Of a stretch of 64,000 nucleotides of DNA, positions 1,945 through 9,383 are shown piece after piece. Position numbers and translations under genes: made by a program. The stretch covers positions 1 to 64,000 of the forward strand of contig JAJYQA010000036.1 of the NCBI GenBank assembly GCA_021794835.1. The letters are read 5' to 3'. Below the pieces are notes generated by a model, which was given only the letters and a program-made list of their open reading frames with translations, had not been told where the DNA came from and did not search any database. Within the stretch, counting starts at the first letter, position 1; every line of letters starts with the position of its first letter. Source of the DNA: Actinomycetes bacterium (GTDB lineage: Bacteria > Actinomycetota > Aquicultoria > Aquicultorales > Aquicultoraceae).

Positions 1945-2640
1945 TTACTTTCCAATACCAGAAGCTATCTCCTCAAGCATATCCATATCCAGGATGGCCA
2001 CTTTCTTGCCATTGGTGTTTATTACACCGGCCGACTTCATCTTGCCAAGAGTTCTCGAGATCGTCTCGCTGATTGTCCCGAGCCTTTGGGCAAGCTCGGT
2101 TTTGCTCAAATCGAGTTCAACCTCAACCGCACCGTCTACATCCCGGCCGCTTTTTGAGATAAGGTCAAGAAGGTATTGCGCAACCCTTGCAGGCACATCC
2201 TTTAGCGAGAGGTCCTCGATAAGGGCGGCAAAACGCCTTAGGTGAAAGGACATAATCGCAATCATGTTTAAGCTAAGCTGCGGGTTTTTTGCAACAAGGG
2301 TCTTGAAATCATCACGTTTAAAGAAAAGGGTCTCGACGTCGGTAACAGCTTTTGCAAATGCCGGATAAGCAGTGCCAGCAAAGAGGGTTATCTCACCGAA
2401 AGGATCTCCGTTATGAACAAAATGAAGTATCTGCTCTCGTCCGTCGGGCCCAATCTTATATATCTTAACCCTGCCGCTCACAACAATATAAAATCCTTCC
2501 CCGGCATTCCCATCAAAGAAGATGATCTCGCCACGGGAAAACTTTCTGTATATCGCTATTGAGCAAAGTTCGTTTAAGTCCTCTTCCGGTAGACCTATAA
2601 AGAGATGGCAGGCCCTTATGTCTTTTTGCAGCTTATCCAT
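1945..2640 (-). CDS. Crp/Fnr-family transcription regulator
   Basis: 231 residues. A cyclic-nucleotide-binding-like beta-barrel (about 15-130, with the G-E-GEGFYIVVSGRVKIY pattern) leads through a long dimer helix into a winged helix-turn-helix (about 170-225, KTELAQRLGTISETISRTLG). Only two cysteines (11 and 26) lie in the sensor region, so an Fnr-type four-cysteine Fe-S cluster is unlikely. The ligand is unknown. The ribosome site GAGG precedes ATG by about 8 bases. It lies beside the nitrogen locus, but there is no direct sign that it controls it. Confidence 0.92.
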   Translation of the reverse strand: MDKLQKDIRACHLFIGLPEEDLNELCSIAIYRKFSRGEIIFFDGNAGEGFYIVVSGRVKIYKIGPDGREQILHFVHNGDPFGEITLFAGTAYPAFAKAVTDVETLFFKRDDFKTLVAKNPQLSLNMIAIMSFHLRRFAALIEDLSLKDVPARVAQYLLDLISKSGRDVDGAVEVELDLSKTELAQRLGTISETISRTLGKMKSAGVINTNGKKVAILDMDMLEEIASGIGK

Positions 2641-2698
2641 AAAATCATCCTCAAAATAAATTCACCCCAATTTTAGGCAAATCTGGTAGTTATCGCAA

Positions 2699-2815
2699 TT
2701 AGAGGGTGCATTTCTTAGAAATTGGGGTAGGGCAGATAAACTCCATCTCGGAGTCCCCAATGTTTTTAAACTGGTGCTCCTCGTCGGCGGGAACAAATGG
2801 TTCATAGTTTATTAT
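2699..2815 (-). pseudogene. C-terminal remnant of a cupin-domain protein
   Basis: On the minus strand a frame ends ...FVPADEEHQFKNIGDSEM then EFICPTP, stop at 2699-2701. The block P-x-x-E-x-HQF-x-N-x-GD-x-x-x-x-FICPTP is typical of the second half of a small cupin barrel. No start codon or first cupin motif is present upstream, where the sequence passes into word repeats (2843-2911). Likely the tail of a lost gene. Confidence 0.4.
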
Positions 2816-2842
2816 CGCCCGATAAATTGGGCAACTAAATCT

Positions 2843-2911
2843 TGTTCACCGGTTTACCAGTTTTCCGGTTTGCCCGTTCACCAATCTTTAATTCGCCATT
2901 CGAATTTTACT
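2843..2911. repeat. Intergenic word-repeat patch
   Basis: The run has four near-copies of a CCGGTTTACC-like word (TTCACCGGTTTACC, AGTTTTCCGGTTTGCC, CGTTCACC). It then changes to AATTCGCCATTCGAATT. Both word types reappear in gaps at 10.5, 35.0, 44.2, 51.6 and 62.1 kb. Confidence 0.55.
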
Positions 2912-2915
2912 TGAT

Positions 2916-3013
2916 TTAACCTACTTTTAATATTCATGCAACATTACTGTAATTAAACAGCAACATACATTTAACCCAGCCGAAACCTTTACGAAACACC
3001 CACCGGTTATTAT
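2916..3013 (+). promoter_or_regulatory. amt-1 promoter with eight phased 11-bp operator repeats
   Basis: Five-base boxes occur every 11 bp at 2916, 2927, 2938, 2949, 2960, 2971, 2982 and 2993: TTAAC, TTAAT, GCAAC, GTAAT, GCAAC, TTAAC, GAAAC, GAAAC, each followed by six unrelated bases. The last box ends at 2997, exactly 10 bases before a -10-like TATTAT (3008-3013), and no normal -35 box is present. This layout (direct repeats replacing the -35 element) is that of OmpR/PhoB-family activators. The box form agrees with the actinobacterial GlnR pattern GTnAC-n6-GAAAC. The regulator identity is inference. Confidence 0.75.
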
Positions 3014-3096
3014 CCAAAACAATAGCAGCTGCGGGTAGTTCAGTCGGCAGAAAGTTCATTGAAAAACTTGGCCTATTTTGAATGGAGGAATTCAAA

Positions 3097-4792
<1,696 letters not shown>

Positions 4793-4820
4793 GTTTGGAT
4801 GGTTATCCCTCCATCCACTT

Positions 4821-4848
4821 AAAAAAGGCGACTTCGGTCGCCTTTTTT
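4821..4848 (+). terminator. Terminator of the first amt-glnK operon
   Basis: Perfect 12-bp stem AAAAAAGGCGAC/GTCGCCTTTTTT with a TTCG loop and a closing T run. It separates the two amt-glnK units, so the second must have its own promoter. Confidence 0.95.
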
Positions 4849-4869
4849 GATTTCCTACCTCTACCCTAG

Positions 4870-4923
4870 TTAACATAGATTTAACCTTAAAGTAACTTAA
4901 ACGTAACAATGGTTCTTTAAAAT
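4870..4923 (+). promoter_or_regulatory. amt-2 promoter with four phased 11-bp operator repeats
   Basis: Boxes TTAAC, TTAAC, GTAAC and GTAAC start at 4870, 4881, 4892 and 4903, strictly 11 bp apart. The last box ends at 4907, and TAAAAT (4918-4923) begins after exactly 10 bases, the same distance as in front of the first amt. No -35 hexamer is visible. The shared geometry supports one activator acting on both promoters. Confidence 0.78.
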
Positions 4924-4980
4924 TTGCATAAATTCAGCTAAATATTGGATAATTGCATGTTTTAAAGATGGAGGGATACC

Positions 4981-6324
4981 ATGCAAAACATCAACACTGG
5001 CGATACCGCCTTTGTTCTTATTTCTGCTGCCCTAGTTCTGTTCATGACCCCGGGCCTTGCTCTTTTCTACGGCGGCATGGTAAGAAGCAAAAACGTGCTT
5101 GGCACAATCATGCATAGCTTTATCATCATCGGTATCATAAACGTTTTATGGATGCTCTTTGGCTACAGTCTTGCATTCGGCCCGGATAAGTTTCACCTTA
5201 TCGGCGATTTAAGCTGGATCGGCCTAAGAGGCGTCGGTATGGCCCCAAACACCAGTTATGCACCAACTATCCCGCACGAGGCCTTTATGATCTTTCAGGC
5301 AATGTTTGCGATTATTACACCCGCACTTATTACCGGTGCTTTTGCCGAGCGCATGAAATTTAAGTCTTTTCTGGTATTTATCATCGCCTGGTTTGTTATC
5401 GTGTACATCCCTGTCGCGCACTGGGTCTGGGGTGTCGGCGGGTGGCTGCGGAACCTCGGCGTGCTCGACTTCGCCGGCGGAATTGTGGTTCACGCAAGCT
5501 CCGGCGCCGCCGCCCTTGCCGCCGCTATTTTTGTTGGCAAGCGAAAAGGGTTTGGCACCGAGCCGATGATACCACACAACATCCCGTTAACAATAATCGG
5601 CACCGGCATCCTCTGGTTCGGCTGGTTTGGCTTTAACGCCGGAAGCGCGCTTGCTTCAGGATCCCTTGCAGCTAATGCGTTCGTCAACACGCAAGTGGCG
5701 GCAACTGCCGCTATAGTAAGCTGGACGGTCGTAGAGTGGCTAAGGGGTGGAAAGCCCACGACTCTTGGCGCTGCCACTGGCGCAATAGCAGGTCTTGCAA
5801 CGATTACTCCGGCGGCCGGATACGTCAGCCCGGCGGCCGCACTTCTTATCGGGCTTGCTGCCGGATTGGTCTGCTACTATGCCATCTCATTGAAATTTAA
5901 GTTTGGCTACGACGACTCGCTCGACGTTGTTGGCGTACATGGTGTGGGCGGTATCCTAGGAACGCTCTCGGTCGGTTTACTTGCATCCACTGCAATCAAC
6001 TCAGCTGGCGCAAACGGCCTTATCCACGGCAATTCTTCCCTAATCGGAATACAGGCTCTTGGCGTATTTACTGTCGTGGTATTCTCATTTATTGCAAGTC
6101 TAGTTATATTTAAAGTTGTCGATAAATTATTTGGTGTTAGAGTCGGGGAAGAGGATGAAATCACCGGTCTTGATCTATCGCAACATAGCGAGATAGGCTA
6201 TGATCTATCCGGGCTTGGCGGGAGTGCGGGAGAATTTGTTACTGCAAACGCTTTTTCTACGCAATCATCCGAGGTGCTTTCGGTGTCAGACGAGACATCC
6301 TTAACACCGGATAACTTGCCGTAA
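4981..6324 (+). CDS. amt: Ammonium transporter (Amt), second copy
   Basis: 447 residues, clearly paralogous to the protein at 3097 over its whole length. The pore histidines are kept (VVHASSGAAAL and VGVHGVGGI), as is the C-terminal GLDLSQHSEIGY. The helix after the first His differs from copy 1 (ASSGAAAL against INAAFAAL), so the two may differ in affinity or rate. The ribosome site GGAGG lies 7 bases before ATG. The gene is 13 bases from the second glnK. Confidence 0.96.
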   Translation: MQNINTGDTAFVLISAALVLFMTPGLALFYGGMVRSKNVLGTIMHSFIIIGIINVLWMLFGYSLAFGPDKFHLIGDLSWIGLRGVGMAPNTSYAPTIPHEAFMIFQAMFAIITPALITGAFAERMKFKSFLVFIIAWFVIVYIPVAHWVWGVGGWLRNLGVLDFAGGIVVHASSGAAALAAAIFVGKRKGFGTEPMIPHNIPLTIIGTGILWFGWFGFNAGSALASGSLAANAFVNTQVAATAAIVSWTVVEWLRGGKPTTLGAATGAIAGLATITPAAGYVSPAAALLIGLAAGLVCYYAISLKFKFGYDDSLDVVGVHGVGGILGTLSVGLLASTAINSAGANGLIHGNSSLIGIQALGVFTVVVFSFIASLVIFKVVDKLFGVRVGEEDEITGLDLSQHSEIGYDLSGLGGSAGEFVTANAFSTQSSEVLSVSDETSLTPDNLP

Positions 6325-6337
6325 GGAGGATAACTAA

Positions 6338-6675
<338 letters not shown>

Positions 6676-6676
<1 letters not shown>

Positions 6677-6830
6677 AGACTAGAAACAAGAAATCAGAGG
6701 TCAGAGGCAAGAGATCAGACGAGAGCGTAAGTAAATCGCCATTGCGAGAAGGCCGGCGAAGCAATCTCAATCTTGTTTCTGAAGGGCCGGCAGGCCCGAC
6801 CTGATTTCTGATCCCTGAAAGAGGCGGTCT
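6676..6830. repeat. Imperfect inverted word repeat upstream of glnD
   Basis: The left part has CTAGAAACAAGAAATCAGAG, GTCAGAGGCAAG and AGATCAGACG. The right part has the same words inverted: CTTGTTTCTGAAGG, CCTGATTTCTGATCCCTGAA. Between them lies GGGCCGGCAGGCCC. The patch is related to the one at 42703-42800. It can fold into a long imperfect hairpin. Confidence 0.6.
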
Positions 6831-6833
6831 AAA

Positions 6834-9383
6834 TTGGTAGGCCCGGCAGATATAACGGAGAAATATACTGTTGGATTCGCTGAATTAAAAAGGGATTATT
6901 TTAAGAAGCCAGCTGGGCGTGGGCTAACCAGCAAACGCTCCGATTTAATTGACGCGATTGTTACAGACCTATTTGACAAAGCAACCGATAATACCAGGCT
7001 AAGAGTTAACCCAAGCCGTAAAGGCATTGCAATCGTCGCCCTGGGTAGCTACGGGCGACGGGAGCTCTGCCCCTTCTCTGATATCGACCTAATGGTTCTA
7101 CATAGCTTAAAAGATAAGGCGGTTACCACTCAAGTATCTGAGAAGATCTTCTATCCCCTTTGGGATTTAGGGCTTAAGGTCGGACACGGCACGCGCACGA
7201 TTAAAGAAAGCCTGTCTATGGCATCAACCAACTTTGAACTACAAACGTCACTTATCGACATGCGCTTAATAGCTGGGGACACTATGCTCTTTCACAAACT
7301 GCAAGATAACTTAATCAGACAGATTCGCGCACGCGGTGGTAGGCGTTTTCTGCAAAATATCCTCAAAGAAAGTATCAGCCGCCATGCGCAGTATGGCCAA
7401 GCAGCATACCTTCTTGAGCCGGATATAAAAGAGGGCGAGGGCGGGCTTCGCGATGTCCATGCGATCATGTGGGCTTCCAGGGGCCTACTCGGCTATTCAT
7501 CCCCAAAAGAGCTGATTAAAAGAGGTTATCTAACCGGTTTTGACGCCGGGGCCCTTGAGGACGGTCTGGAGTTTTTGCTTCTCGTTAGAAACCACCTGCA
7601 TTACATATCAGGGCGCGAAAACGACCGGCTCTTTTTTGAGCACCAGGGAGAAATCGCAAAGACGCTTGGCTTTAAAGATGGAAGCGGAATCTCTGGCATC
7701 GAAAAATTCATGCGCTCGTTTTATACCCATGCAAGCGCAATTGAGCTCGTATCGAGGTCATTCTGGGAGCAAATTAAAAGCGATTTTCTACCAACTAAGG
7801 ATAAAAGAATCTCACTTACTAACCCAGCGGAGTACCCCAAGCATCCCGGTGCCGAGATGAAACTTTTCCGGCGGGCTGTAAAAGAGAGCCTCCCCATCGA
7901 CTACAAGAGGCTTAACATAATAAGAGAAGGCCTGGAGAAAAGCGAAAATCCAGTGGCCTGGACGCAGAATATAAGGGATGACTTCTTTGCAATCATAAGC
8001 TCGGGAGAGATATCGCTTCCCATACTTGAGGTCATGGATTATATTGGGGTTCTCTCCCGCTATATACCCGAGTGGAGCTATGTGCGCTGCCTGCCGCAAT
8101 ACGATTCATATCACCTCTACACAGTTGATATGCATCTCTTTTTAACGATTGCCGAAATCCAGAAGATGGGTGCGGGCAGGTACGATAAGGTAAATCCTCT
8201 TTTAAAACAGGTTTACAAAGAGGTCGGGCAAAAAGACCTGCTCTACCTTGCGGCCCTGTTGCACGATATCGGCAAGGGGCTCGGCAAAAACCATAGCGAG
8301 AAAGGAGAACAAATCGCAAAGAAGATATGCGCGCGCATGGGCCTTCCCCCTAAAGACTGCGAGACGGTCGGCTTTTTAGTTGGAAACCACCTTCTATTAT
8401 CAGATATCGCGTTACGCCGCGATCTGAACGACGAAAACGAAATCATTGACCTTGCGGAGAAAGTTATCGATGAGGAGCGGCTTAAAATGCTTTACCTTAT
8501 CTCGGTTGCCGATTCTATGGCCACCGGCCCTAAGGCCTGGGATACCTGGAAGGAGAACTTACTGCGCGAGATATTCTACAAAGTCATCCGTATAATAAGA
8601 AGCGGCGAGTACACGAATAAGGAGAGTATCGAGCGTATCCGTAAGACCGGCGCGAAGGTAAAGCAGGCTCTTACCCCGGAGTACGGCGAGGCCGAGGTAG
8701 GGCGGTTCCTCGACCAGATGCCCCACTCGTATCTACTTGCGCAATCTGGCGGGGATATCGTCGAGCATTTTGAGTTAATGCACAAACACAAAAATAAAAG
8801 CATAACGATTGCCGCAAAACAGCGGGAAGGCATGCGCGAGGTCATTATTATAGCGGGCGACCAGCCCGGCCTTTTCTATAAAGTATCCGGCGTGCTGGCC
8901 CTGCACGGGATAAATATCCTGGGTGCCCAGATATACACTCGAAGCAATGGTGTTGCACTTGATATATTTAAGGTTGAAGGGTATTTTGAGCACGAGATAA
9001 GCAACGAGAAGTGGCATAACATAAGCCGCGACATCAAGCGGGCTCTGGAGGGAAAAATCGCGCTTGATTACCGTATCGCCGAGAAAGCCAACCGCTACCA
9101 GCCCAAAAAGGCCTTAGAAAGGCCACCTAAGGTTGATATAGACAATTCCTCTTCTGATTTTTACACCATAATCGAGGTGCACGCGCAGGACCGGATCGGT
9201 CTTCTTTACACCGTCACCAGAGTCATGCACGACTTAAACCTCGATGTCCACCTGGCCAAAGTATCAACCAATGTGGATAAGGTGATCGACGTGTTTTATG
9301 TCTGGGATATCTTCGGACAGAAGCTATCCAACGAAGAGCAGATAAACGACATTAAGAAAGCAATACTTAAAGCGTTAGAGTAG
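6834..9383 (+). CDS. glnD: Bifunctional uridylyltransferase / uridylyl-removing enzyme GlnD
   Basis: 849 residues, the usual GlnD size. Domains in order: nucleotidyltransferase with the GSYGRRE-x-x-P-x-SDID signature (about 69-84), GlnD linker helices, HD hydrolase domain with LLHDIGKG (about 472-479), then two ACT domains (from about 668 and 775) that bind glutamine. It adds UMP to P-II at low glutamine and removes it at high glutamine. TTG at 6834 follows GAGGCGG. It lies directly downstream of both amt-glnK pairs, completing the nitrogen-sensing set. Confidence 0.96.
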   Translation: MVGPADITEKYTVGFAELKRDYFKKPAGRGLTSKRSDLIDAIVTDLFDKATDNTRLRVNPSRKGIAIVALGSYGRRELCPFSDIDLMVLHSLKDKAVTTQVSEKIFYPLWDLGLKVGHGTRTIKESLSMASTNFELQTSLIDMRLIAGDTMLFHKLQDNLIRQIRARGGRRFLQNILKESISRHAQYGQAAYLLEPDIKEGEGGLRDVHAIMWASRGLLGYSSPKELIKRGYLTGFDAGALEDGLEFLLLVRNHLHYISGRENDRLFFEHQGEIAKTLGFKDGSGISGIEKFMRSFYTHASAIELVSRSFWEQIKSDFLPTKDKRISLTNPAEYPKHPGAEMKLFRRAVKESLPIDYKRLNIIREGLEKSENPVAWTQNIRDDFFAIISSGEISLPILEVMDYIGVLSRYIPEWSYVRCLPQYDSYHLYTVDMHLFLTIAEIQKMGAGRYDKVNPLLKQVYKEVGQKDLLYLAALLHDIGKGLGKNHSEKGEQIAKKICARMGLPPKDCETVGFLVGNHLLLSDIALRRDLNDENEIIDLAEKVIDEERLKMLYLISVADSMATGPKAWDTWKENLLREIFYKVIRIIRSGEYTNKESIERIRKTGAKVKQALTPEYGEAEVGRFLDQMPHSYLLAQSGGDIVEHFELMHKHKNKSITIAAKQREGMREVIIIAGDQPGLFYKVSGVLALHGINILGAQIYTRSNGVALDIFKVEGYFEHEISNEKWHNISRDIKRALEGKIALDYRIAEKANRYQPKKALERPPKVDIDNSSSDFYTIIEVHAQDRIGLLYTVTRVMHDLNLDVHLAKVSTNVDKVIDVFYVWDIFGQKLSNEEQINDIKKAILKALE

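Follow-up and report, generated by a model that had tools for sequence, protein, structure and literature searches.

The window analyzed here, a stretch of 64,000 nucleotides from an Actinomycetes bacterium, carries two ammonium transporter genes, each followed by a P-II gene, in the order amt1, glnK1, amt2 and glnK2 and then a long glnD-like gene, with amt2, glnK2 and glnD named from their translations (Table 1). The closest amt relative, at 91%, belongs to an unidentified bacterium; that of Candidatus Aquicultor secundus comes next at 85%, ahead of those from other Actinomycetota MAGs, and the host is a relative of Candidatus Aquicultor within the Actinomycetota. On the minus strand, positions 2705-2797 hold a cupin gene remnant of 31 residues that is 84% identical to an intact cupin of 117 aa, the rest of the gene being gone; in relatives (L196 and L214) the intact cupin gene lies between amt1 and a Crp/Fnr gene. 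Short direct repeats of the CCGGTTT/CCAGTTT type, recognized by eye, occupy positions 2848-2882. An Rfam match to sraA within 2400-6900 was below threshold (29 vs. 56 bits) and was ignored, and there was no other match in this region.

Table 1. Features of the amt1 and amt2 promoters and the genes that follow them (window coordinates).
Feature	Position	Strand	Remarks
Box 1	2916..2920	+	TTAAC, upstream set
Box 2	2927..2931	+	TTAAT, upstream set
Box 3	2938..2942	+	GCAAC, upstream set
Box 4	2949..2953	+	GTAAT, upstream set
Box 5	2960..2964	+	GCAAC, core set; GCAAC in 9/11 family members
Box 6	2971..2975	+	TTAAC, core set; TTAAY in 11/11 family members
Box 7	2982..2986	+	GAAAC, core set; GAAAY in 11/11 family members; roughly at the place of a -35
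Box 8	2993..2997	+	GAAAC, core set; GAAAY in 11/11 family members; ends 10 nt 5' of the -10
-10 hexamer of amt1	3008..3013	+	TATTAT; fixed offset from array, no -35
amt1, ammonium transporter (TIGR00836)	3097..4440	+	likely start ATG at 3097, GGAGG at 3084-3088
glnK1, P-II signalling protein	4454..4792	+
Second GlnR-type array (predicted)	4870..4907	+	TTAAC TTAAC GTAAC GTAAC, 11 bp, before amt2
-10 hexamer of amt2	4918..4923	+	TAAAAT; offset identical to that of amt1
amt2, second ammonium transporter	4981..6324	+	translation closely similar to amt1
glnK2, P-II protein	6338..6676	+	translation closely similar to glnK1

Upstream of amt1, eight pentamers of the form [GT]NAA[CT], all on the plus strand, recur with an exact 11-bp period over positions 2916-2997, and the phase is lost on both sides of this array, the units at 2883-2905 and at 3004 being non-box sequence. 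The best -35 match of the amt1 promoter is 1/6. A sequence-only reading of this DNA had described eight boxes 11 bp apart that end 10 nt from a -10 hexamer lacking a -35, and every element of that description is borne out; its list of box types (TTAAC, GTAAT, GCAAC and GAAAC) holds for the four named and leaves out TTAAT (2927). On the other side of the -10, the hexamer CAGCTG (3026-3031) is found 21-22 nt 3' of the array in five of eight representative genomes, and in a sixth at 16 and 29 nt; the leader around it is otherwise poorly conserved.

Conservation in related genomes had been suggested as a check on the array, and each of the 11 genomes of the family proves to have the array upstream of this same amt gene. 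Eight boxes are present in ten of them, and the remaining one (G017) carries seven plus a degenerate TTTAC at position 1. Among eight representatives, the first four positions of the box hold 1.6-2.0 bits of information and the fifth 1.2, the linkers 0.6-1.1 and the upstream flank 0.39. It is also evident that box identity is specific to position, with GCAAC at box 5, TTAAY at box 6 and GAAAY at boxes 7 and 8, and that boxes 5-8 are somewhat better conserved than boxes 1-4 (about 8.9 vs. 8.0 bits of summed box information, calculated by hand). In a scan of 296 Actinomycetota genomes for six KNAAY units, matches were found in all 10 sampled family members, and those beyond the family comprise one amt promoter (G056), tandem-like TTAAT runs in three members of the class and one TAAAC tandem repeat. 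A search of 396 Actinomycetota genomes for eight units restricted to boxes ending in C (KNNAC) proved overly stringent: it retrieved only tandem repeats and did not pick up even the amt1 array. Outside the family, six-box arrays precede amt genes in G020, G030 and G056. Tandem TTAAT repeats with a period of 11 or 22 bp (L203, L204 and L205) occur away from amt genes in three genomes of the same class.

The same kind of box is found at the promoters of other nitrogen-assimilation genes (amt and glnA). A four-box pattern is placed 46 times in seven relatives, compared with 1 placement of the reversed control, and 8 times in the genome of the window itself, where the control has 0 (54 vs. 1 together); the placements that were followed up lie mostly before amt1, amt2 and glnA. 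Arrays of three to six boxes, with the same -10 geometry as at amt1, stand before the second amt gene and before glnA, and a six-box run precedes a glutamate synthase gene in G015. Another six-box run, in G017, is found at a contig end beside polA and presumably sits before the glutamate synthase gene, and four-box runs adjoin nrpR in two relatives, where they point away from nrpR to the contig end. Among 27 array promoters, 25 have a -10 with at least a 3/6 match to TATAAT at one exact offset, the last 11-bp unit and the start of the -10 being exactly four bases apart. At this common offset the hexamer matches TATAAT at 4.7/6 positions on average, compared with no more than 2.6 at any other, and -35 matching is weak (1-3/6). 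The remaining two promoters, those of the glutamate synthase arrays, have no -10 at the common offset. Because arrays of shared -10 geometry lie before the second amt gene and glnA, the array set defines a predicted nitrogen regulon. Elsewhere in the window's own genome, a run of TAAAT TAAAT GTAAT GCAAT GTAAT on the minus strand (L148:2630-2684) lies directly before a rubrerythrin-like gene and leaves no room for the usual -10. A NrpR-type nitrogen regulator (Pfam NRD1_2; L142:209-1210, plus strand) adjoins glutamate synthase in GlnR-bearing relatives, a lineage with two nitrogen regulators.

A protein of about 210 residues adjoins glnA in relatives, its gene lying immediately 5' of glnA in G003, G005 and G014 and immediately 3' of it in G007. 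Its best PDB matches are 8hig (137 bits), 8hih (132) and 8hml (112), with RegX3 at 87 bits. These three entries are taken to be GlnR, for which structures with RNA polymerase and with DNA are described in PMC10704036; the depositors' molecule names are generic. In a tree of moderate support with several long branches, the DNA-binding domain, a winged helix of OmpR type, falls together with those of the solved GlnRs (92/87); from this tree several regulator rows not caught by the motif used were left out. The Pfam model GlnR_1st gives a weak match to P0001 (E = 0.00015; 22.1 bits, with a cut-off of 27) and no match to P0002. In P0001, P0002 and the L220 protein, the receiver is without the acidic pair and the conserved lysine, both of which are present in L001 and L005. 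Judged from these residues, the glnA-adjacent protein is a putative atypical OmpR-type regulator, whose receiver appears to be without the residues needed for phosphorylation. Of the ten other family members, nine encode a GlnR-like regulator, and the one lacking it (G008) is an assembly of 77% completeness. In G056, which belongs to another family, the amt gene that carries the six-box array is immediately preceded by the gene for a GlnR-like protein whose place in the tree is unsettled. Second GlnR-like paralogues, with 45-49% identity to the glnA-adjacent one, are present at L257 and L258 (G014:C23 and G015:C30).

The sequence-only reading had assigned the array to a GlnR of the OmpR family, and this is now supported by the family-wide array, by the motif before the second amt gene and glnA and by the GlnR-type regulator beside glnA in relatives. 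The form of the boxes, which had been likened to GlnR sites, also agrees: the pentamers and their 6-bp separation fit the Mycobacterium smegmatis consensus t/gTAAC-n6-Gc/aAAC (PMC10704036). The proposed search of the genome for such a regulator succeeded in relatives, beside glnA, but in the window's own assembly (97.8% complete, 44 contigs) no GlnR gene was found and the adjacent glnA is missing with it. The seven OmpR-family regulators of this assembly were considered as binders, but all look canonical and 0/7 are GlnR-like. The only glutamine synthetase of this assembly is a divergent one. A 19-kb piece from a genus-mate, bearing glnA, glnR, subunits of glutamate synthase and hydrogenase genes, has no match as a block in the own assembly beyond short repeats. 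The absence of glnR and glnA is thus probably that of one block, through a missing contig or an assembly gap, and the presence of the regulator in the window's organism is inferred from its relatives.

Could the array instead be a product of chance, of A/T composition or of simple tandem repetition without regulatory meaning? Tandem TTAAT or TAAAC repeats of equal period do occur in a few other genomes (L203-L205 and L268), but in the array the linkers vary between units and between species whereas the boxes do not. At the box frequency of the window, eight-box runs are expected about 1.5e-10 times per window, a figure made optimistic by a box definition drawn post hoc from the array itself; neither the second array nor the conservation in relatives depends on this definition. 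Shuffling comes nowhere near eight boxes, with at most three at 11 bp and four at any period of 8-22 in 150 dinucleotide shuffles of the window, and at most four when the intergenic region is shuffled 2000 times. Besides the amt1 array, only the one at 4870 (four boxes, 11 bp) reaches a length of four boxes at any period of 8-15 in the 64-kb window. Equal arrays at random positions, which had been named as evidence against the claim, did not appear in the pattern scans. A three-box pattern gives 24 matches in the own genome, of which the two amt arrays account for 8, and its reversed control gives 8; most of the three-box matches away from amt were treated as chance. The conservation already refutes chance, which is excluded for the array, and we regard this whole class of explanations as practically negligible.

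An operator of a different regulator is a more substantial alternative, yet still an improbable one. The array might be bound by a PhoB/PhoP-type regulator, such as the PhoB-like L005 beside pstS, or by another canonical response regulator of the OmpR family. Members of this family share 11-bp direct repeats, seven canonical ones are encoded in the own genome, and a TTAAC-TTAAC-TAAAC run upstream of pstS (L149:4653-4688), adjoining L005, is possibly a Pho operator; PhoP is also known to compete with GlnR at Streptomyces amtB (PMC5826061). However, the motif tracks amt, glnA and glutamate synthase across genomes, and the GlnR-like protein beside glnA in relatives is a dedicated one, distinct from the seven OmpR-family members. 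No phosphate-gene regulon emerged, the long arrays being at nitrogen genes and only a three-unit run near pstS, and PhoP may overlap GlnR at part of the array. There is likewise only a slim chance that the array is a true GlnR operator that has become a relic, in a strain that lost glnR and the usual glnA, and that it is now decaying or served by another regulator. Both genes are indeed missing from a nearly complete assembly, and of a neighboring cupin gene only a decayed remnant is left here. Nevertheless, within the window none of the eight boxes and neither -10 is damaged. The assembly also lacks the neighboring glutamate synthase and hydrogenase genes of the block, a pattern that favors an assembly gap, and a genus-mate rated 100% complete has GlnR.

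In our judgment it is highly probable that the array serves, at the amt1-glnK1 promoter, as operator for an orphan activator of GlnR type from the OmpR/PhoB family. This explanation accounts best for what is seen directly, namely the motif, its period and conservation, the -10 geometry, the content of the regulon and the GlnR-type regulator in relatives, and it would entail GlnR occupancy, two-set loading, a response to nitrogen and the regulator itself in this organism. Under nitrogen limitation, GlnR protomers would bind head to tail, one per 11-bp unit. Boxes 5-8, whose distance from the -10 equals that seen in the four-box arrays of amt2 and glnA and of which boxes 7 and 8 fall roughly at the place of a -35, would position a core complex that replaces the missing -35 and touches RNA polymerase over the -10 located 10 nt downstream, and boxes 1-4 would bind a second set of protomers that makes activation steeper or faster. 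In the known GlnR-RNA polymerase complex, four GlnR DNA-binding domains occupy four sites head to tail, and the receivers form a tetramer that bridges to the polymerase (PMC10704036). In Streptomyces coelicolor, amtB is induced 300-fold with three GlnR boxes vs. 45-fold with two (PMC5826061); by analogy, the extra set at amt1 likely gives faster and stronger induction. The eight protomers would load cooperatively. Since the B-DNA repeat, at about 10.5 bp, is shorter than the 11-bp period, the eight units would drift by about a third of a turn, and distal protomers may face the polymerase differently from proximal ones. A more specific version, which we hold only tentatively and would not favor outright, is that two GlnR tetramers bind in series, the proximal one contacting RNA polymerase and the distal one only tuning steepness or speed, with the number eight fixed by selection throughout this family of deep-branching actinobacteria. 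If this were true, the regulon would form an operator ladder, with 8 boxes at amt1, 4-6 at amt2 and 3-5 at glnA, in which array length ranks promoters within one regulon.

Direct repeats of 11 bp in place of a -35 are a general mode of the OmpR/PhoB family. The array shares this layout with PhoB/PhoP boxes but differs from them in its nitrogen-gene targets and in the regulator beside glnA, which is GlnR-like rather than PhoB-like. In its letters, it closely matches mycobacterial GlnR sites. With S. coelicolor amtB it has in common the target gene family, the regulator family and 5-bp sites with 6-bp spacers within the box, and in both cases amt receives more boxes than other targets, most Streptomyces targets having four pentamers. 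The earlier statement that known sites usually hold two to four boxes needs qualifying, as Streptomyces amtB carries three GlnR boxes (a3-b3, a1-b1 and a2-b2), that is, six pentamers (PMC5826061); the amt1 array differs from these six in having eight in one uninterrupted 11-bp register. The four-site head-to-tail geometry of the GlnR-RNA polymerase complex (PDB 8hih) fits boxes 5-8 and the four-box arrays of amt2 and glnA, whereas four further sites lie upstream at amt1, beyond the four protomers of that complex. A search in a limited literature collection turned up no study of GlnR in Aquicultor. Switches of this kind are known; what sets the amt1 array apart is a length beyond those described and the keeping of eight boxes across a bacterial family. 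With these results, predicted GlnR control reaches a deep-branching Actinomycetota class that is known chiefly through metagenomes, and a natural series of array lengths inside one regulon becomes available. Moreover, since GlnR-RNA polymerase structures account for four sites, a fixed number of eight makes the role of the extra protomers testable, and the fixed -10 offset offers a simple sequence rule to predict nitrogen-starvation promoters in this group.
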